Source: a virus. Taken from it: DNA of 34,390 bases. Made by a program: the position numbers and the translations under genes. The notes beneath the pieces were generated by a model. It saw only the letters and a list, made by a program, of their open reading frames with translations, was not told the DNA's origin and searched no databases. The DNA is taken from positions 1 through 34,390 of the IMG/VR virus record IMGVR_UViG_3300027754_000257, one strand, 5' to 3'. Shown here in pieces: positions 2,190-34,390 of this stretch. Every line of letters starts with the position of its first letter. Positions within the stretch are counted from its first letter, which is position 1.

Positions 2190-3572
2190 ATGGCAACAGA
2201 TTTCAGTTTTGAGGGCTTGCTTGGCGGCATCAACAATGCCTTTGGCGGTGGCAGCAGCAACTACCTAGACGAGTACCTGACGCCAGAGCAGAGGCGAATG
2301 ATGCAACGCAATGCCATGCTGTCAGCGTCTGCAGCCTTGCTGAAAGCTGGCGGTGAAAGCACCCGGCGTATTGGCATTGGTGAGGCACTAGGCGAGGCGC
2401 TACAGGCAGGACAAGCCGGGTACGAGAAGGCGCAGACGGGTGCGCTAACCCAGATGTCGCTGAAGCAGAAGATGGATGAGGCGAAGAGAGCAGCAGAGTT
2501 GAGAAAAAGGATTGCGGGTGTATTCACGCCCCAAACAGCAATGCCAGGCGCAGCGCCAATGCCAATGCCAGAAGTTGACACAGGCGCGCCGCCACTACCC
2601 ACTGCTGGTGCAGCAATGCCGCCATCGCAAGATATGGTAAGACCGATGAACCCCAATGCTGCTAAAGCCAACCAGTATCGCCAAGTAGCAAAAATGCTGG
2701 AGGACGATGGTCAATTAGAGAAGGCGATGCAGTACCAAAAGTTTGCGATGGACCTTGACCCACCAACCACTGCCACAGGAACTGCTTTGTCAAAGTTAAT
2801 TGCAGAACGCGCTATGCTGCCTGTTGGTAGTCCATTGTTTAAAGCATACGATGCAGCAATTGAGAAGGAATCTCAATTTGCTCCAACTGCGCCAAGGGTA
2901 GGAACTCTACTATCGCAACTTCAAGCTGATTTGGCTGGAGCAACTGACCCTAGAATAAAACAACAAATTGAAGCCAGGATACAAAAAGAAATTAACAACG
3001 CACCGCCTGCACAAAACATTGTCAACATAAATGAAGGACAAAAGGGGCTTGAGAATGTAATGAAGTTAGGCGCCGCCTTTAAGGGTGAGCCTATCTACAA
3101 AGAATATCAAGGAATGCAAACAGCGTTTAATCAAGTAAATACTGCGCTAAACCAAGAGACTCCAATTGGCGACCTTGCTGGTGCAACCAAAATGATGAAA
3201 ATGATGGATGAGGGTTCTACAGTAAGAGAGTCTGAACTTGCACTTGCAATGGCTGCTGCTGGACGCATGGACAGATTGAAAAATTATCTCAATCAAGCGA
3301 TGACAGGTCAGAAGTTAACTCCAAGACAGCGCATTGAATTTAAGGCTTTGTCCAATGAGCTGTATGCAGCAGCAGGTCAGGCATACAACAATAAACGAAG
3401 TGAGTACCAGGCATTTGCTGAGGCATATCAACTTCCTAACATAAGCACTGCTATTGGTGCGCCAGCCAATGTGCCATCCATTGTTAGGCAACCAGGTGGG
3501 TCTGTTACGGCACCAGGTATGGGTGGTGGTAGACCAACTTTAAATAACATCTTTGGCGCACCGGGGAACTAA
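2190..3572 (+). CDS. Putative internal virion (ejection) protein
   Basis: This 460-residue protein has a strong Shine-Dalgarno (AGGAGA) before the ATG. The N-terminal 150 residues contain a Gly-rich start, helical EQRRMMQRNAMLSAS and a GIGEALGEALQAGQAGYEKA segment, followed by a Pro/Met/Ala-rich linker. The C-terminal two thirds is helical and soluble. The base composition changes inside the gene: the first 500 bases are G/C-rich and the rest, from about 2690, is clearly A/T-richer, suggesting a swapped module. It lies between two other candidate ejection proteins. No enzymatic motif was recognised and the function is inferred from position. Confidence 0.6.
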   Translation: MATDFSFEGLLGGINNAFGGGSSNYLDEYLTPEQRRMMQRNAMLSASAALLKAGGESTRRIGIGEALGEALQAGQAGYEKAQTGALTQMSLKQKMDEAKRAAELRKRIAGVFTPQTAMPGAAPMPMPEVDTGAPPLPTAGAAMPPSQDMVRPMNPNAAKANQYRQVAKMLEDDGQLEKAMQYQKFAMDLDPPTTATGTALSKLIAERAMLPVGSPLFKAYDAAIEKESQFAPTAPRVGTLLSQLQADLAGATDPRIKQQIEARIQKEINNAPPAQNIVNINEGQKGLENVMKLGAAFKGEPIYKEYQGMQTAFNQVNTALNQETPIGDLAGATKMMKMMDEGSTVRESELALAMAAAGRMDRLKNYLNQAMTGQKLTPRQRIEFKALSNELYAAAGQAYNNKRSEYQAFAEAYQLPNISTAIGAPANVPSIVRQPGGSVTAPGMGGGRPTLNNIFGAPGN

Positions 3573-3574
3573 TC

Positions 3575-5662
3575 ATGGATGGCATTGAAGACAAAATCAA
3601 ACAGGCCAAAAAAGCTGGTTACAGGGACGAGGATATCGTCCAGTTTTTGGCGCAGCTTCCAGACGTTGGGCCACAAGTCTTGGCTGCATTGGAGCAGCAA
3701 TACAAGCCAGCCGAAATTCTAAAGTTCCTGGGGCAGTCTCCTGCTTACCGAGCAGGCACAGAGAAATCCACACTGCAACGCGGTGCCTTAACTGCACTGC
3801 AAGGGCCAGCCTTTAATTTTCTTGATGAGATGTATGGCGCAGTCAGCGCACCATTCACAGCGGTAACGCAAAACATTCCGCTGGGTCAGGCGTATGAGCA
3901 AGGTCGGGATGTTGTTCGAGGTCAAACAGAATCGTTTGAGCAAGAATCCCCATTCACTGCTGCTGGCCTGCAACTTACAACCAGTTTGCCTATGGGAATG
4001 ATCAGCGCACCAGCCGCCATTGGCAGGGCAGTTATGCCAGCCATCACCCGTGCATTACCAACCGTAGCACCAACTGTCCAGGCCGCAGGCAGATACATGA
4101 CAGCAGCGCCTGGTGCTGGTACGGCAATGGGTTTAGGTCAGCGCACAGCTCAAGCTGCTGGCTCTGGTGCTGGCTACGGGTTTATTAGCGGTCTAGGCGC
4201 ATCTAATCAGAGTGACGCAATAGACATACTGAACGATGCAGCCAGAAGCTCACTTATTGGTGGCACTCTTGGCGGTGCATCCCAGCCAACCATGAGCGTG
4301 TTGGGTGCTGCTGGCAGACAAGCCACAGCAAGAATGTCCCCCACAGCCGCTGGAACCTACGCCCAGCAAAAAGTTGCCGAGGCTTTGATTCGTGATAGAC
4401 CAGAGAACTTAGCCCCAAGCGCACTGAACATGGCGCAGGCCAGGCTCTTGAAACTTGGTCCAGAGGCGCGTATTGCTGACGTTGGTGGGAAGTCAACACG
4501 CAACCTTCTGGATGTCCAGGCCACATTGCCAGGCACCACGGCAGAGGCTGTGGAACGTGCCATTCGGGAGCGCCAGGTAGGACGCGCTGGAAGACTGATG
4601 GCTGGTGCTGATGAGGCACTTGGCACTCAAAACGCACAGTTTACGCAGAGCATTGACAACTTTAGCAACCAGAGATTTGCCGCATCACGCCCATACTATG
4701 CTGCAATTGATCAATCTACAGCAACCGTGAATAATTCCATCTTTGATGCCTTGAGCAAATCAAAGGGTGTGCAAGGTTCTGCTGAACTTTTGTTTACAAC
4801 AAAGACGGGTCAGCTGATTGACTTGTCAAAGCTCAAGCCTGGTGACTCAGTGCCAATGAATGTCCTGGATTCGTTGAAGCAATCTCTTTATGACACATCT
4901 ATGGGTCTGCGTAAAGTTGGCAGCAATGCCCAAGCTGAAGCGTATGACAAGGTTCGGATACAACTTGTCAAGCAATTGGAAGACCAAGCGCCAAAGATTG
5001 GTGGTCAATCTGCCTACACAATGGCAATGAAAACATGGGCTGGTCCATCACAGATGATGGATGCTGCTGAGATTGGTCGCAAGGTAATGAAGGGCGATAT
5101 TCTTGACATACAGCAGGCCACCAAGAATTTATCTGCCTCTGAGATTGACGCATTCAGAATTGGTGTGTTGCAGGGATTGAGAGAGAAAACTGGCACTGAG
5201 GCTGGACAGACTTCACTTTTGAAGTTTTACAAAGAGCCAAGCACACAGGCCAGATTGAGGGCCGCATTCGGAGGAGACTTTAAAGCATTCTCTTCCTCTG
5301 TTTTGGCTGAAGAAGCTCTCAAACGATTTGAGTCTGCTGGTCGCGGTTCTAAAACGGCTGCAATGCTTGCTGGTGGTGCAGACCTGGATGTTGCACCACT
5401 GGCCCAGGCAGCAGGCTCAGTAGCATCTGGAAGTCCAACTGCAATATTGACTGCAGCAAGTAACCTGGCTCGACAGACGCAAACGCCAGAGGCTGTTCGC
5501 AATGAAATCGGAAAGATTTTGCTTTCGCGTGACCCTAGGCAACTACAGCAGCTTTCTGAAATCATCAGACAACTGAACGCATCACGGGCAAGGGCGGCGG
5601 GTGCTGCAGGCTTTGGTGCTGGTCAGGTAGGCGGCATGGCCCCTAGTTATTTTGCACCATAA
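3575..5662 (+). CDS. Large putative internal virion (ejection) protein
   Basis: This 695-residue protein starts 2 bp after the previous stop in a TAATCATG junction. Residues 1-60 form a charged helical region (DGIEDKIKQAKKAGYRDED). Residues 70-240 are rich in Gly/Ala/Thr with weakly hydrophobic stretches, and the remainder is helical with repeated Gln/Ala/Leu. It is the largest protein of the block, in the place where podoviruses encode the big DNA-ejection protein. I see no clear lytic transglycosylase motif. The ejection role rests on size, composition and order. Confidence 0.6.
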   Translation: MDGIEDKIKQAKKAGYRDEDIVQFLAQLPDVGPQVLAALEQQYKPAEILKFLGQSPAYRAGTEKSTLQRGALTALQGPAFNFLDEMYGAVSAPFTAVTQNIPLGQAYEQGRDVVRGQTESFEQESPFTAAGLQLTTSLPMGMISAPAAIGRAVMPAITRALPTVAPTVQAAGRYMTAAPGAGTAMGLGQRTAQAAGSGAGYGFISGLGASNQSDAIDILNDAARSSLIGGTLGGASQPTMSVLGAAGRQATARMSPTAAGTYAQQKVAEALIRDRPENLAPSALNMAQARLLKLGPEARIADVGGKSTRNLLDVQATLPGTTAEAVERAIRERQVGRAGRLMAGADEALGTQNAQFTQSIDNFSNQRFAASRPYYAAIDQSTATVNNSIFDALSKSKGVQGSAELLFTTKTGQLIDLSKLKPGDSVPMNVLDSLKQSLYDTSMGLRKVGSNAQAEAYDKVRIQLVKQLEDQAPKIGGQSAYTMAMKTWAGPSQMMDAAEIGRKVMKGDILDIQQATKNLSASEIDAFRIGVLQGLREKTGTEAGQTSLLKFYKEPSTQARLRAAFGGDFKAFSSSVLAEEALKRFESAGRGSKTAAMLAGGADLDVAPLAQAAGSVASGSPTAILTAASNLARQTQTPEAVRNEIGKILLSRDPRQLQQLSEIIRQLNASRARAAGAAGFGAGQVGGMAPSYFAP

Positions 5663-10409: not shown

Positions 10410-10616
10410 ATGGAACAAAAACTTACAGCGCAGCAGCGCCAGGAACTCGCCGAGAAGGTCGGCCTCAACGAACAATGGCTGTATCAGTGTCTCAGCGGTA
10501 GGCGGGACATGAGTCCTGCAGAGGCCATCCGAGTGGAGGCTGCATCTGGCGGGACAGTCACCCGGCAGATGCTTTGCCAAGGCAACTGGGCCAAGATTTG
10601 GCCTGAGTTGGTATGA
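10410..10616 (+). CDS. YdaS/Cro-like helix-turn-helix regulator
   Basis: This 68-residue protein carries an HTH in residues 6-50 (ELAEKVGLNEQWLYQCLSGR), followed by SPAEAIRVEAASGGTVTRQ and NWAKIWPEL. This is the layout of YdaS/Cro-like phage regulators, where the last helix follows a VEAA-G-VTR motif. It is the first rightward early gene and sits beside two matching operators, so it is the natural candidate to bind them. The ATG has no Shine-Dalgarno and lies at the predicted transcription start, as in leaderless repressor mRNAs. A separate CI-type repressor was not found. Binding to O1/O2 is inference. Confidence 0.8.
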   Translation: MEQKLTAQQRQELAEKVGLNEQWLYQCLSGRRDMSPAEAIRVEAASGGTVTRQMLCQGNWAKIWPELV

Positions 10617-11149
10617 GCAATCTACAATCCCACCAGGTAATGCAGTTGCCTACTTTGGGGGTGGGCCAAGCGTCCACCTCCTCCTTTTCTCGGGTCATTG
10701 GCATTGACCCTGGCGCATCAGGCGCCATTGCTCTCCTGGTCGGCGGGGTGCTGATCAGCGTTCACGATATGCCAACCGTCACCGTGGAGCGCAACAAGGC
10801 GCAGAAACGCCAAGTCTGTCCTGCTGGACTTGCAATCTTGATGCAGCAGCTCGCACCGCACAAGGCCATTGTCGAGAAGGTAGGCGCCATGCCTGGTCAG
10901 GGTGTGTCTTCCATGTTCAGCTTTGGGCGTTCGGTTGGAATCATCGAGGGAGTGCTTGCCGCCAAGCAGATACCTGTGACCTTCACAACTCCGCAAGCCT
11001 GGCAGAAGTTGTCAGGTGCCGCCAAGGGCAAGGACGGTTCACGCCAGAGGGTCATGGAGCTGTTTCCGAGGGAAGCGCATCTCTTTGCACGGGTCAAGGA
11101 CGATGGACGCGCTGACGCTGTTTTAATCGCACTGACTACTAGTTGCTAA
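10613..11149 (+). CDS. RuvC-like Holliday junction resolvase
   Basis: This 178-residue protein begins at an ATGA overlap with the regulator gene. The RuvC/RNase H-like fold is shown by VIGIDPGASGAIALL (catalytic Asp32), AIVEKV (Glu88) and the C-terminal DDGRADAVLIAL (Asp164/Asp168), matching the Asp-Glu-Asp-Asp pattern. MPGQGVSSMFSFGRSVGIIE between them is typical of phage and bacterial RuvC-like proteins. It should cleave branched DNA made during replication or recombination before packaging. About 25 residues precede the first strand, so a later start (Met10) is possible. Confidence 0.85.
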   Translation: MSNLQSHQVMQLPTLGVGQASTSSFSRVIGIDPGASGAIALLVGGVLISVHDMPTVTVERNKAQKRQVCPAGLAILMQQLAPHKAIVEKVGAMPGQGVSSMFSFGRSVGIIEGVLAAKQIPVTFTTPQAWQKLSGAAKGKDGSRQRVMELFPREAHLFARVKDDGRADAVLIALTTSC

Positions 11150-11155
11150 GATCAA

Positions 11156-11836
11156 ATGATTCACTATCACGGGACGCCAATTACGCCAATGAAAGCCATA
11201 GAAACAATGGGCGGTAAAAACTTTTGTATTTCTTTTGCTTGCCCTAAAGATTTAAAACGTTGTTTACGTTTAGGTCAATCTTTAATGTTAGACAACGGAG
11301 CATTTAGCGCCAAAACAAGAGGATATCAATTTGACCTTAATGGGTTTTACGATTGGATTGAGCCTATTCTTGCTCACCCTCATTGGGCAGTCGTTCCAGA
11401 CGTAATTGATGGCAATGTTGATGAACAAAGAGCAATGGTTAAGTCTTGGCCTTTTCGCAAAGAGTTTGGAATTCCTGTATGGCATTTAGGTTTGCCAATT
11501 TCCTACTTGCTTGAATTGTGTGACGCTTGGGGCCGGGTTTGCTTTGGGTCTGCTGGTGAGTTTTGGCAAATCGGCACGGCAAAATGGTGTCGCAGAATGG
11601 ATGAGGCTTTCAATGCCTTGGTCAACACATACGGCAGACAAATCCCTTGGGTACATGGGATGCGGATGCTAGGTCAATCAAGTGGGCCGTGGCCTTTAGC
11701 CAGCGCGGATTCCACCAATGTTGCTCTGCATCACGCAGAATATTTACAGTGCGCTGGTTGCATGGCAAAACGCATTGATTCAACCAATCCACCAACAAAG
11801 TGGAATGTTCAACCAGTACAGGAACTTTTATGTTAA
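11156..11836 (+). CDS. TGT/DpdA-like enzyme, candidate 7-deazaguanine DNA transglycosylase
   Basis: This 226-residue protein shows the pattern of the short DpdA/tRNA-guanine transglycosylase-related phage proteins: LMLDNGAFS (Asp46), WAVVPDVIDG (81-82), PVWHLG (His110), RVCFGSAGEF (128-136), WVHGMRML (165-172) and a SADS motif (183-186; Asp185 would be the nucleophile). Known DpdA enzymes replace guanine in DNA with preQ0 or a related 7-deazaguanine. The C-terminal C-x2-C (199-202) could be part of a zinc site. It overlaps the following transporter gene by 7 bp, and a queuosine-precursor transporter beside a TGT-like enzyme strongly supports the assignment. Both genes are more A/T-rich than their neighbours, suggesting transfer as a pair. 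RNA as substrate cannot be excluded. Confidence 0.7.
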   Translation: MIHYHGTPITPMKAIETMGGKNFCISFACPKDLKRCLRLGQSLMLDNGAFSAKTRGYQFDLNGFYDWIEPILAHPHWAVVPDVIDGNVDEQRAMVKSWPFRKEFGIPVWHLGLPISYLLELCDAWGRVCFGSAGEFWQIGTAKWCRRMDEAFNALVNTYGRQIPWVHGMRMLGQSSGPWPLASADSTNVALHHAEYLQCAGCMAKRIDSTNPPTKWNVQPVQELLC

Positions 11837-12306
11837 TTGCAGCAATTTTTACCTACGCCATTGCTATGACATTGGCAAATTTATCCATTGCCACATTTGG
11901 GGTGTGGGTTAGTCCTATCAATGCTTTTATTTTTATTGGGCTTGATTTGGCATTGAGAGATTGGTTACACATCAAACTAAAAATGTGGCAAATGGGCGCA
12001 TTGATTGCCAGTACAGGACTGTTGACTTACGCGCTTAACCCTGCTGCTGGAATGATTGCTATAGCCTCTGCCCTATCTTTTATGTTGGCGGCACTTGCTG
12101 ATTGGGCGGTCTTTACAAAAATTACTGGCTCATGGTTTAAACGTGCCAATGTGTCTAATGTTGCAGGCGCTGCGGTTGATTCAATTGCTTTCCCGACAAT
12201 TGCTTTTGGCGTTTTAATGCCAGAAATTATTGCAATGCAATTTATTGCCAAAGTGTTTGGTGGAGCATTGTGGACAGCAGCAATGGCGGGTAAGGACAAT
12301 AAATGA
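11830..12306 (+). CDS. VUT/YhhQ-like queuosine-precursor transporter
   Basis: The start at 11830 gives 158 residues, with AGGAA upstream and a 7-bp overlap with the DpdA-like gene. It is almost wholly hydrophobic with about five membrane segments. The family signature is seen in the C-terminal half: NVSNVAGAAVDSIAFPTIAFG, then IAKVFGGALWT, matching the N-x-G-x-x-x-D-S and K-x-x-G-x-x-W pattern of VUT_1 (YhhQ) proteins, which import preQ0 or preQ1. It is shorter than typical bacterial YhhQ (about 220 residues), like short phage versions. Its likely job is to supply precursor base for the neighbouring enzyme. Substrate and direction are inferred from family. Confidence 0.75.
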   Translation: MLIAAIFTYAIAMTLANLSIATFGVWVSPINAFIFIGLDLALRDWLHIKLKMWQMGALIASTGLLTYALNPAAGMIAIASALSFMLAALADWAVFTKITGSWFKRANVSNVAGAAVDSIAFPTIAFGVLMPEIIAMQFIAKVFGGALWTAAMAGKDNK

Positions 12307-12530
12307 CATCACTTCAAAGCAGTGAGCGCCAAACGCTCAAGGCCCACATCCTTTACCTCAACGCTGAACTGGAGAAGTCTCGCCGCCAGTGCCGTATGAA
12401 GACTGATTTGCTCCAACGCATGATGGACCCAGATGACCTAGGTCACGCGGTGAGCCAAGAGATCAGGACTTTGGTGTACCAAATTCTCATCGAAGACAGT
12501 CACAACGAAAGAGCAGCATGGAACAGATAA
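12303..12530 (+). CDS. Small coiled-coil hypothetical protein
   Basis: This 75-residue protein starts ATGA-coupled to the transporter, with AAGGA upstream. The first 45 residues are a charged helix (TLKAHILYLNAELEKSRRQC), followed by MMDPDDLGHAVSQEIRTLVY. It overlaps the nuclease gene by 13 bp. There is no recognised family; it may be an adaptor of the replication or nuclease proteins around it. Confidence 0.6.
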   Translation: MTSLQSSERQTLKAHILYLNAELEKSRRQCRMKTDLLQRMMDPDDLGHAVSQEIRTLVYQILIEDSHNERAAWNR

Positions 12531-13582
12531 CCCTACGCCCGAGCGCAGCTGCACGATGGATTGCTTGCCCTGCAAGTGTCCAACTGTCAGCTAGGATGCC
12601 AAAGGGAGAGTCAGGCGCTGCCGCCCAGCGTGGCACTGCGATTCACTCTCTGAGTGAAAGCTGTTTCTTAACCTCCAGCGCACCAGAGGAGTGGCTTGGC
12701 ATTGACGTTGAAGGCGTTAAGATGGACGAGGACGCCATCACTTACGCCAGGAAGCACCTGGACTACATTGAGACAGAGGAGCTGCGCCTGGGCAATGTGT
12801 TTGTGGAGCAGTTTGTCACAGCCTACGAGTCTCCCGCGGTGAAGGTGGCGGGTACTGCTGATGTCTTGGGCTGGTCAGATGACACTGGCGAATTCATCAT
12901 TGGTGACTTGAAGACAGGCCGGGGATACGTTGACGCTGACAGTGACCAGATGCGTATTTACGCCTTGGGCGGGATGCGTTTGGCGAAGAAGCAATTCAAG
13001 ACAGTGACGATGACCATTGTGCAGCCAATGCATGGCGTCAACCGCAGTCACACCATGACAGTGCCTGACCTGCTACGCTGGGAAGCGCAGACGCTGATAC
13101 CCGCCATCCAGGCTGCGATGGCCACCACAGCCGAGGCAGTGCCATCTGAAGCTGCTTGTCAGTGGTGTCCTGCTAAGGCAATATGCCCAGCGCACATCGA
13201 ACCCTTCAACATTATGAGCGTGGCGCAGGAACCACCAGCACTAAGTGATGAGCAGCTGACATCGTTCCTGGACAACATCAGCAAGGTAGAGGGATTCATC
13301 AAGGCATTGGAAACCTATGCCACCAAGCGCATTGCAGATGGTGCAAGCCTTCGCGGTTGGCAGATGGGTCCAAAGAAGTCTACAAGGAAGTGGACTGATG
13401 AGCAGGAAACTGCTCTTGCACTGCACGAAGCTGGTCTGACATCAATGCAGATTTACCCCAAAGAAATCATATCTCCAGCAGTTGCCGAGAAACTGCTTGG
13501 AGATAAAACAGTCACGGAAACCTTGACTTCCAAGGTGTCTAGTGGACTCACACTCTGTCGTAGCTACGGCATTGGTGAGTAA
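12518..13582 (+). CDS. DUF2800-type PD-(D/E)XK exonuclease with Fe-S cysteines
   Basis: This 354-residue protein has the RecB/Cas4-type nuclease motifs in order: GTAIHSLSE (His43), VAGTADVLGW (Asp115), IIGDLKTG (Asp130-x-Lys132) and QMRIYALG (Gln144). A Cys at 18 (WIACPAS) and three late cysteines (CQWCPAKAIC; 214, 217, 223) reproduce the one-plus-three arrangement of the iron-sulfur cluster in Cas4 and AddB nucleases. The C-terminal 110 residues are an accessory domain. It lies between small early genes and the SSB-like gene, so a role in recombination or DNA processing is likely. The start overlaps the previous gene by 13 bp. Confidence 0.8.
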   Translation: MEQITLRPSAAARWIACPASVQLSARMPKGESGAAAQRGTAIHSLSESCFLTSSAPEEWLGIDVEGVKMDEDAITYARKHLDYIETEELRLGNVFVEQFVTAYESPAVKVAGTADVLGWSDDTGEFIIGDLKTGRGYVDADSDQMRIYALGGMRLAKKQFKTVTMTIVQPMHGVNRSHTMTVPDLLRWEAQTLIPAIQAAMATTAEAVPSEAACQWCPAKAICPAHIEPFNIMSVAQEPPALSDEQLTSFLDNISKVEGFIKALETYATKRIADGASLRGWQMGPKKSTRKWTDEQETALALHEAGLTSMQIYPKEIISPAVAEKLLGDKTVTETLTSKVSSGLTLCRSYGIGE

Positions 13583-13622: not shown

Positions 13623-14219
13623 ATGCTAAATCTTTCAAATGGCAATGGCGGTGCCTACATCCGTTTTATGGCTCAGACAAAGGTCTGGGAGAACTCGGAT
13701 AAGGAGGCCATCAACATTGAGTCAATGGTGATGGACCTGGACTCAGTTCGCACCGGGTGGCTGCTGCTGGCAGTGGGACAAAGGGATTGGGTAGAGGACG
13801 CTCAAGTTGGCGTCAAGGGCAAGCAGCCCAGCCCTGACTACAAGTATGGTTTCAGCGTGAAGCTGTTCTCAAAGCCAACTGGCGTAGTGGAATGGTGCGC
13901 GAATGGCGTAGGGGTCACGAAAGGTTTCCAGGCCATTTACAACGCCTGTGATAAGGCGGCTGATGCTAACCCTGGCAAGGTGCCTGTGATCAAGTATGAG
14001 GGTGCCACCAGTTTGAAGATTGGTGCAGGGAACACGGCAATACCAAACTTCACGCTGAAGAACTGGATTAACCGTCCAGCGGCATTGGACGCTGACCCGG
14101 CAGATGCTGACTTCGAGGAGCCAGCACCAGCACCAGCGCCAGCACCAGTGCGTCAGGCTGCAAAGCCCAAGCCAGCGCCAGCGCCAGTGCAGCAGGATGA
14201 CGAGGAAATGTTTAACTGA
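13623..14219 (+). CDS. SSB-like single-stranded DNA-binding protein
   Basis: This 198-residue protein follows AAAGGAAA at a normal distance. Residues 1-150 look like a compact beta-rich domain (MVMDLDSVRTGWLLLAVGQR, YGFSVKLFSKPTG). A linker of Pro-Ala repeats (about 167-190) leads to an acidic tip ending DDEEMFN, the kind of acidic tail with a phenylalanine that SSB and T7 gp2.5 use to recruit partners. It stands between a nuclease and the primase-helicase. The fold is not proved by motif, so the call rests on the tail, linker and context. Confidence 0.65.
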   Translation: MLNLSNGNGGAYIRFMAQTKVWENSDKEAINIESMVMDLDSVRTGWLLLAVGQRDWVEDAQVGVKGKQPSPDYKYGFSVKLFSKPTGVVEWCANGVGVTKGFQAIYNACDKAADANPGKVPVIKYEGATSLKIGAGNTAIPNFTLKNWINRPAALDADPADADFEEPAPAPAPAPVRQAAKPKPAPAPVQQDDEEMFN

Positions 14220-19738: not shown

Positions 19739-20178
19739 GAACCATACCCGATAACATGAAACACGCCGTGATGATCATCATGAGTGGCAAAGAGCCTGGT
19801 GATTCCTGTCCAGAGGCTACTCAGGATGTAACGCTGAACTTGAAGAACCGGGACAAGGCCATCACCAAGGCCGCATACGGTCCCGAGAATCCCAAGCTGC
19901 CCAACACCGAGTTTTGGATGCGTAAGGCAGAGAAGTGGGATGTCAGCGCCAAGGATGCCAAGCAAAGCCGTTGCGGTAACTGCTCAGCGTTTAACCAATC
20001 AGATGAGATTGAATCTTGTATCGCCGAGGGCATTGGTGATGAGGGTGACCCCTGGGCGGTGATTGAGGCTGGTGATCTAGGGTACTGCGAGATATTTGAC
20101 TTCAAGTGCGCCGCCAGCCGCAGTTGCGATGCGTGGATTGTTGAAGACGAGGAAGTGGACACTGAGTTGGAAGAATGA
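19735..20178 (+). CDS. Cys-rich phage protein, possible metal or Fe-S binding
   Basis: This 147-residue protein is ATGA-coupled to the gene before it. The C-terminal half carries six cysteines with conserved spacing: RCGNCSAFN (80, 83), C95, GYCEIFDFKCAASRSCDAW (118, 125, 131). This resembles phage proteins that hold a zinc or Fe-S site (compare HiPIP-like spacing). It ends in a very acidic tail. Located between terL and portal, it may be a minor head component. The function is unknown. Confidence 0.65.
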   Translation: MRTIPDNMKHAVMIIMSGKEPGDSCPEATQDVTLNLKNRDKAITKAAYGPENPKLPNTEFWMRKAEKWDVSAKDAKQSRCGNCSAFNQSDEIESCIAEGIGDEGDPWAVIEAGDLGYCEIFDFKCAASRSCDAWIVEDEEVDTELEE

Positions 20179-20858
20179 ACCCTCCCATCGTCATCAGCAC
20201 CGTCCACGGTAAGGGTTTACCCGTACTGCTGGAGAGCATTCGGCAGTACGCGCCTGATGTCCAGATTTATTTGAAGGGGCCAGACCGAGTGATTAGGGGT
20301 TACGGCTGCGCCTTGTTGTTTGGTGATGCCACCAACTTTGGTGATGATTACAACGCAGTGATCAGGCAAGCACTGCGTGACGGGCATGGGTCAGTGGTGA
20401 TTGCCAATGATGATATTGTGCTGACGCCCAGCAGCTACCGAATGCTGCTGGATGATGTGGCTATCTGCAAGGAGCTGAACCAGAACCCTGGACTGGTGGC
20501 GTCCAGGTCCGATGCCGTGAGGCCAATCCAGAATGTCAGGTTTAATGATGGCGAGAAACTTAACGGGATGAAGTTCAGCCATGAGTCATTTGTTAGGCAG
20601 CTGCCTGTGGTGAGTCCGATATTTGCCTGGATGAGTGCAGAGGCGTTTGAGGATTGTCAGTTCCCGCCAATCAATTACTTCAGCGATGATGTCATCTGCA
20701 TTGACCTGGCGAAGAAGGGGTACAAGCACTTTCTGAGTGCCAGCTACGTTCACCACATTGGCAGCAACACCATAGGCCGGGATGCACAACAACTGACGCT
20801 GGCGGCTAAACCTTGGATTGAGCAACATCGTCCAACCTACGCGAAAGAATGGTTCTGA
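20175..20858 (+). CDS. Glycosyltransferase, GT-A fold
   Basis: This 227-residue protein overlaps the previous stop (ATGA). The N terminus PIVISTVHGKGLPVLLESI, the NFGDDYNAVIRQAL segment and VVIANDDIVLTP (a D-x-D-like NDD at 78-80) fit a family 2-like glycosyltransferase. A late acidic FSDDVICIDLAKKGYK and VHHIGSNTIG fit the acceptor side. It lies inside the packaging/head operon. It may glycosylate a virion protein, modified DNA or the host surface; none is shown by the sequence. Confidence 0.75.
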   Translation: MNPPIVISTVHGKGLPVLLESIRQYAPDVQIYLKGPDRVIRGYGCALLFGDATNFGDDYNAVIRQALRDGHGSVVIANDDIVLTPSSYRMLLDDVAICKELNQNPGLVASRSDAVRPIQNVRFNDGEKLNGMKFSHESFVRQLPVVSPIFAWMSAEAFEDCQFPPINYFSDDVICIDLAKKGYKHFLSASYVHHIGSNTIGRDAQQLTLAAKPWIEQHRPTYAKEWF

Positions 20859-25118: not shown

Positions 25119-25433
25119 ATGGAAACACGACTCTTTGACAGAAATGATGTCACAGGCATCACCAGGCTCTGGCACTATGACCCCGAGACTGACGAGGCAA
25201 CCATTGAGACTCAGCAGGATGTCTCCAATGTGGTGGAGGAGAACAAGGACCAGTTCAACGCCATCGACAACAAGGCCAACTGGACAGGCGAGTGGCACAA
25301 GGTGGCAAGCATTCCACTGAACATCTACTACGAATTGCAGGCCAGCGGCAAGATCACAGATCAAGCCTACATGAAACGCTGGCTCAATGACCCCGACAAC
25401 CGATTCTTCAGAACACGACCAGGAAAAGTATGA
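25119..25433 (+). CDS. Small head-region protein
   Basis: I choose the ATG at 25119 (METRLFDRNDVTGITRLWHY; 104 residues) because upstream codons lie inside a strong hairpin and the nearest GTG touches the Shine-Dalgarno sequence. The protein has an N-terminal beta-like section (YDPETDEATIETQQDVSNV), then a helical WHKVASIPLNIYYELQASGK and NDPDNRFFRTRPGKV. It lies between capsid and glycosyltransferase. Its function is unknown; it may be a minor head protein. Confidence 0.7.
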   Translation: METRLFDRNDVTGITRLWHYDPETDEATIETQQDVSNVVEENKDQFNAIDNKANWTGEWHKVASIPLNIYYELQASGKITDQAYMKRWLNDPDNRFFRTRPGKV

Positions 25434-26065
25434 AGATTATTGCGGTTTGCACTCCGGCGCGTGACATGGTTCACACGCAATATGCCTATTGCCTGGTGAA
25501 CATGGTGGCATATCACGCCTGCAATACGGATGACCGCATTGACCTCAAAATCATGCAGGGTACGCTGATACAGAACCAGAGGGCAGAGCTGGCGCTGGAC
25601 GCCATGCGCGAGGGCTGCAGCCACATCCTGTTCATTGACTCAGACATGACCTTCCCGCAGGACATGATTCAGCGGCTGATGGCGCATGACCTAGACATTG
25701 TGGCAACCAACTGCGCCAGGCGCCGTATGCCAACAGGCCCAACTGCCAAGATTGGCAACAGGTTGGTGTACAGCACCCTGCAGGACCACGGGCTGCAGGA
25801 GGTGGACACCATTGGCATGGGCGTCATGCTGATCAAGGCAGACGTATTTAAGAAGATGTCCGAGCCTTGGTTTGAGACTCCCTGGCGCAATGACAAGCGT
25901 GGCTATGTCGGCGAGGATGTGTTCTTCTGTTTAAAGGCCAAAGAGATTGGGTATAAAATCTACATTGACCACGATGTCTCGCGGGAGATAGGGCACATAG
26001 GCACCTTTGAATTCCGACACGAACACACATGGGTGGTCAAGGACTTGCAGGACAAGGAGGCATAA
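25430..26065 (+). CDS. Glycosyltransferase, GT-A fold with DSD motif
   Basis: This 211-residue protein is ATGA-coupled to the gene before it, with AGGAAAAG upstream. MKIIAVCTPARDMVHTQYAY leads to a nucleotide-sugar region; HILFIDSDMTFPQDMI holds the D-x-D metal motif (70-72). GEDVFFCLKAKEIGYKIYID and REIGHIGTFEF are typical of phage family 2 or Anp1-like glycosyltransferases. It is the second such enzyme within the head gene block. The sugar acceptor is unknown. Confidence 0.8.
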   Translation: MKIIAVCTPARDMVHTQYAYCLVNMVAYHACNTDDRIDLKIMQGTLIQNQRAELALDAMREGCSHILFIDSDMTFPQDMIQRLMAHDLDIVATNCARRRMPTGPTAKIGNRLVYSTLQDHGLQEVDTIGMGVMLIKADVFKKMSEPWFETPWRNDKRGYVGEDVFFCLKAKEIGYKIYIDHDVSREIGHIGTFEFRHEHTWVVKDLQDKEA

Positions 26066-33960: not shown

Positions 33961-34390
33961 ATGGCAACGATGAACGCGCAACAAGAAGCTGAACAGGCCC
34001 GCCAACAACGAATAGCGGAAGAGGGAGCGGCAATCTTAGCAGCATACCAACAGGGCACAGCCCCTACGGGAATATCCGTTACACAGGCGTATCAGCAAGT
34101 TTTAGGCAGAACTCCAAACGCTCAAGAGATTGAGTACTGGAAAACCCAGTTTGGGAACAGCCTTGATGCAACTGAACTGTCCACCTTCAGTGTGGCAGCT
34201 CAACCAGAACGGGCTGCAGCTCCAACCACGAATGATGCTGTTCGGCAGATGTACCTGTCAGTGCTGGGCCGTGAGCCTGATGCCAGTGGGCTGAAATACT
34301 TCTCTGACCGTTTTGGTGCTGACGTTGACGCCTCTGAACTAGGCATTTTTCGTGGAATGTCTACCCAAGAGATCAACGCCAATGCAGCTA
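33961..34390 (+). CDS. DUF4214-domain protein, N-terminal part (continues at base 1)
   Basis: The ATG follows AAGGAG at a normal distance. The frame is open to the window end, and the last 141 bases equal the first 141, so it continues into 1-1103. Residues 1-35 form a Glu/Gln/Ala-rich helix. Two DUF4214 units follow: QAYQQVLGRTPNAQEIEYWK and MYLSVLGREPDASGLKYFSD, about 60 residues apart. The repeated unit suggests a tandem adhesion or stalk module. Confidence 0.75.
   Translation, partial: MATMNAQQEAEQARQQRIAEEGAAILAAYQQGTAPTGISVTQAYQQVLGRTPNAQEIEYWKTQFGNSLDATELSTFSVAAQPERAAAPTTNDAVRQMYLSVLGREPDASGLKYFSDRFGADVDASELGIFRGMSTQEINANAA
34250..34390. repeat. Right copy of 141-bp terminal direct repeat
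   Basis: Matches 1-141 with two synonymous mismatches. It ends exactly at the window edge, so the assembly overlap could be longer in the full molecule. Confidence 0.9.

Follow-up and report, generated by a model that had tools for sequence, protein, structure and literature searches.

A DpdA-like gene and a predicted precursor importer gene form a conserved pair in phages without detected preQ0 synthesis genes

The window analyzed here is the whole of phage record IMGVR_UViG_3300027754_000257, 34,390 nt (34.4 kb) of DNA from a freshwater phage. The termini of the record (positions 1–141 and 34250–34390) overlap by 141 bp at 98.6% identity, with 2 mismatches, which makes it probable that the record represents a complete genome with a circular map. 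The record ends are bridged by a DUF4214 repeat protein (33961–34389 and 3–1103). The portal, capsid and adaptor proteins match SU10-type families, and the structural genes share about 70% DNA identity with those of a relative, MW202879. Elsewhere in the window lie a putative Anp1-family glycosyltransferase (25430–26065; Pfam, 7.3e-11) and a protein lacking a Pfam match (20175–20858) that appears glycosyltransferase-like by eye.

Two overlapping genes on the forward strand are the subject of this analysis. The first (11156..11836, ATG start; PHROG 887) encodes a predicted DpdA-like 7-deazaguanine DNA transglycosylase of 226 residues; the second (11830..12306) encodes a six-helix membrane protein of 158 residues, a VUT/QPTR (YhhQ-like, COG1738-type) protein predicted to import the precursor. 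The initial annotation, made from the DNA letters alone, had placed both reading frames and their overlap correctly: the dpdA stop and the VUT start share exactly 7 bp, ATGTTAA. An AGGA within dpdA (11820–11823), ahead of the VUT ATG at 11830, is a plausible ribosome-binding site, and together with the stop/start overlap it delimits a predicted translational coupling site (11820..11836, forward strand). Overlaps of the ATGTTAA type recur in many relatives. In comparisons with close relatives, dN/dS is 0.06–0.15 for dpdA and 0.03–0.16 for the VUT gene.

The pair is embedded in a run of replication and recombination genes, all on the same strand. Directly upstream of dpdA, separated from it by 6 bp, is a RuvC-like Holliday junction resolvase (10613..11149; PHROG 1770, 1.8e-35). 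The VUT gene is followed by genes for a 75-aa protein (12303–12530), a PD-(D/E)XK exonuclease (12518–13582; PHROG 69; Pfam DUF2800/PDDEXK_1), a 198-aa protein (13623–14219) and a primase/helicase, and the order of the 75-aa protein, exonuclease and 198-aa protein is kept in relatives. The dpdA and VUT genes have a G+C content of 44% and 42%, compared with 57% and 54% for the resolvase and exonuclease, and the difference is larger at third codon positions (36–37% versus 58–64%). This low G+C relative to the flanks suggests that the pair arrived recently in the present phage; among 16 relatives compared, the pair is not always lower in G+C than its flanks. No preQ1 riboswitch or other RNA family was detected in the 34.4-kb window at the gathering threshold.

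The 226-residue protein matches PHROG 887, named queuine tRNA-ribosyltransferase, at 4e-47, a family that the phage 9g, MED16 and 7-11 DpdAs match as well. It shares 40% BLASTP identity with the MED16 DpdA and 31% with that of 7-11, while hhalign aligns it with the 9g DpdA at a probability of 96.5% (E = 7.5e-10). The TGT/DpdA-type motifs singled out in the initial annotation are present, and they are not a product of chance, since 36 columns are invariant among 44 relatives. The invariant positions include D46-N-G-A-F50, P81-D82, W109-H110, H167-G168, R170-M-L172 and S183-A-D-S186; D46, D82, H110, H167 and D185 are found without exception in the 44 sequences. H167 aligns with H196 of 9g, where the VHG motif begins at 195. 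A histidine at this 9g position separates DpdA (DpdA-1) from DpdA2, in which it is absent (PMC6884629), and it is kept in all 44 relatives. A Pfam search of the protein gave no match, and the PADLOC DpdA model matched nothing in the window and 9g only weakly. PDB sequence searches with the DpdA and VUT profiles returned no match for either.

A structural model of the DpdA-like protein has a mean pLDDT of 74 and is weak after about residue 160. It superposes on TGTs with Z-scores of about 12.6 (up to 12.7) and an rmsd of 3.1 over about 200 residues, indicating a predicted TGT-like barrel fold. The top structural match is the CBASS protein Cap10 (9ntn; Z 13.2), a score tied with those of TGTs (difference within 1). 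Foldseek reported nothing under 0.001, with Cap10 first at 2.9e-03. This likeness surfaced by structure comparison only; a PDB sequence search with the DpdA profile at E-values up to 1 did not find Cap10. We did not assign the protein to the Cap10 group, as this search gave no sequence match and the record has no QueC-family gene as a Cap9-like neighbor. Profile and structure comparisons thus place the protein within the TGT-like fold, with phage DpdAs as its relatives. Judged by homology, the diagnostic histidine and the modeled fold, it is a DpdA-type phage enzyme, as had been proposed, and belongs to the DpdA-1 type.

A TGT-like fold alone does not tell a DNA, RNA or protein target apart. 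Because the sequence relatives of the window protein are phage DpdAs, DNA is the best inferred target. The 9g DpdA inserts preQ0 into plasmid DNA, and virion DNA of MED16 and 7-11, phages without synthesis genes, contains dADG (PMC6884629, PMC8306585). A point against this is that the phages whose modified DNA has been measured have DpdAs of the other dpdA clade, not that of the window.

The membrane protein passes the Pfam Vut_1 cutoff (36.7 versus 27.2 bits) and matches PHROG 4899 at 1.4e-33. Its AlphaFold2 model (pLDDT 94.5) has six long helices, in line with the VUT/QPTR-type transporter first suggested. Among known structures the model comes nearest to ECF S-components, with Z-scores of up to 10.7, a range in which helical bundles call for caution. 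The protein misses the NCBIfam equivalog cutoffs for queuosine-precursor transporters (PRK11212, 20.4 versus 252 bits; TIGR00697, 18.8 versus 50.95 bits). E. coli YhhQ (QPTR, COG1738) likewise has a Vut_1 domain, but is 221 residues long as opposed to 158, and the hhalign alignment of the two (76 columns, E = 4e-05, probability 70%) involves the C-terminal half only. Some QPTR proteins carry preQ0/preQ1 and others queuine, a difference that sequence does not reveal (PMC11130926); the cargo of the phage protein is therefore not readable from its sequence. By family, it is probably an importer of a 7-deazaguanine precursor.

How tightly are the two genes linked? Every viral locus retrieved with VUT as bait (78/78, forming 31 clusters at 90% identity) has a same-strand dpdA directly upstream, at a gap of −4 to 415 bp. 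The bait patterns favor close relatives, so this figure is valid for the present VUT subfamily only. Within that scope, it supports the functional coupling of enzyme and transporter that had been inferred from the single locus. With dpdA as bait, VUT was present in 70 of 79 evaluable viral loci, in one of which (L078) it precedes dpdA. VUT is missing from the remaining 9 viral loci and, on the bacterial side, from 45 of 56, and DpdA therefore does not require it. Among annotated phages, 21 records contain a VUT relative, with an adjacent dpdA, in either order, in 14; PEAT2, Flyfo and Opt-719 have the VUT-then-dpdA order. The other seven records are mEp021-like. In E. coli phage mEp021 itself (L222, 3953–5220), a VUT-type protein matching PHROG 4899 overlaps a DNA methyltransferase gene, which we considered as a possible DpdA and rejected; no dpdA was found in the mEp021 record. 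In Rhizobium phage RHph_X2_30 (L223), a DUF165-annotated gene (1985–2515) matches both PHROG 4899 and Pfam Vut_1, and a dpdA annotated as hypothetical (2995–3684) lies about 480 bp after it.

Two dpdA lineages, about 38% identical to each other, can be distinguished. The VUT partners of both are 48–79% identical to the window VUT, many of those from the second lineage exceeding 70%. Such similar VUTs alongside divergent dpdA lineages indicate that partners have probably been exchanged.

Searches of the window for QueC, QueD (PTPS) and QueF were negative, and in 29 related records none of the three scored over the cutoff; a QueC-like match in the relative G011 reached 14.2 bits, below the cutoff, and was dismissed. 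Nor did any of the 38 window proteins scanned give a FolE- or QueE-type Pfam match. The reported lack of queC/D/E/F thus agrees with these searches. Related pairs also occur in bacterial genomes, namely a betaproteobacterial MAG, Ideonella livida, Achromobacter aestuarii and a Nitrosomonadales MAG, although the MAG contigs carrying the pair may be misplaced. QueC, QueF and TGT are encoded in all four of these genomes, QueD in three. Four betaproteobacterial genomes were searched for both VUT and QueC; three of them encode QueC but have no VUT match other than the phage-type one. In two bacterial genomes (G032 and G033, those of loci L163 and L165), VUT and queC genes are no more than about 1 kb apart, possibly representing further 7-deazaguanine clusters. 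From the two nearest cellular matches, our guess is that the host of the window phage is a betaproteobacterium. Given QueC, QueF and TGT in the pair-bearing genomes, strict dependence on the medium for precursor is unlikely. It is more likely that the importer supplements host-made preQ0 than that salvage is the sole source.

Precursor salvage by DpdA phages is a previously proposed idea. It was put forward for Vid5 in 2018, through a phage preQ0/preQ1 transporter (PMC6266253), and for EC151 in 2021, where the phage transporter would raise preQ0 in the host (PMC8310023). For the 76 DpdA-only phages, the largest group of Hutinet et al. (2019), host preQ0 or uptake was suggested as the source (PMC6884629). 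The arrangement is thus not as unusual as the initial annotation held, whereas its reading of an enzyme, a transporter, their coupling and missing synthesis genes is retained. Hutinet et al. also reported YhhQ homologs in some phages, uncorrelated with any group (PMC6884629). Like the window, the DpdA-only group 3 phages (Salmonella phage 7-11 and, later, Pantoea phage MED16) have a DpdA-1 enzyme and no preQ0 synthesis genes, but their records contain no VUT and their DpdAs belong to the other dpdA clade. Vid5 and EC151 resemble the window in having a VUT-family transporter proposed to import precursor for DpdA; in contrast, they also have several or all of the genes for preQ0 synthesis, whereas the window has only dpdA and the transporter. 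Pectobacterium phage PEAT2 comes close, as its VUT (gp18) and queuine tRNA-ribosyltransferase (gp19) genes are adjacent and overlapping on one strand. However, in PEAT2 VUT precedes dpdA, and the DpdA belongs to the 7-11 clade. We found no discussion of the PEAT2 pair in the literature. What is new here is the strict VUT–dpdA pairing without synthesis genes, together with the observation on host-like genomes.

Taken together, we favor, at a probability of about 0.7, a coupled module in which DpdA exchanges guanines in phage DNA and VUT tops up the precursor. The two genes would be translationally coupled within the replication gene run. The short DpdA (DpdA-1) would put a 7-deazaguanine in place of some guanines of phage DNA; preQ0 is the likeliest base, and the end product may be dADG. 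The six-helix VUT/QPTR importer would supplement the host-made pool with preQ0, or a base related to it, from outside the cell. Modified phage DNA may benefit against restriction. In MED16, dADG accounted for about 0.13% of G, and the majority of the G-site enzymes tried were still able to cut (PMC8306585), which makes the protective effect of such low modification doubtful.

Alternatively, DpdA might modify DNA with host preQ0 only, the transporter serving elsewhere, for example in supplying queuosine for host tRNA or in the export of a by-product, and the genes simply moving as a block. The QueC, QueF and TGT of host-like genomes, the viral and bacterial genomes that have dpdA but no VUT, and the VUT without dpdA in mEp021 all fit this explanation. 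Against this, none of the 78 VUT-seeded loci, which span 31 clusters and two divergent dpdA lineages, lacks dpdA, and a single passive block does not explain the reversed order in PEAT2, Flyfo and Opt-719. We therefore regard it as unlikely. We hold in similarly low regard, and if anything slightly lower, a variant in which the transporter brings in a 7-deazaguanine beyond the synthetic capacity of the host (queuine, for instance, or some other scavenged base) for DNA marking; if true, phage DNA would carry a mark that the host pathway itself does not produce.

It is less probable still that the enzyme is a small TGT acting on tRNA and raising queuosine or a related base during infection. The TGT fold of the model, the name of PHROG 887 and the role of bacterial QPTR proteins in supplying the tRNA pathway (PMC11130926) point in that direction. 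However, the 44 relatives share no invariant cysteine and thus lack the zinc site of TGTs, and the window DpdA has no Pfam TGT match. PF01702 found nothing in the record, whereas 14 of 14 control genomes score, and profile alignment to E. coli TGT gave no useful match. A canonical tRNA TGT was rejected on the missing Pfam match and the unconserved zinc site. Moreover, relatives of the window DpdA stem from phages with modified DNA, and host-like genomes already possess a full TGT. Least probable of all is a Cap10-like action on protein, for instance to interfere with host defense: Cap10, a TGT-family enzyme in the 7-deazapurine protein modification of CBASS that binds a 7-deazaguanine-linked protein end (PMC11996544), is the top structural match, but its Z-score is tied with those of TGTs and the sequence relatives are phage DpdAs rather than Cap10.

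The linkage described here provides a large set of phages in which a transporter and DpdA are kept together without synthesis genes. DNA modification with a partly scavenged base thereby becomes directly testable, using two short genes in E. coli. The question it raises is whether the importer alters how much of the base phage DNA contains, or which base it is.
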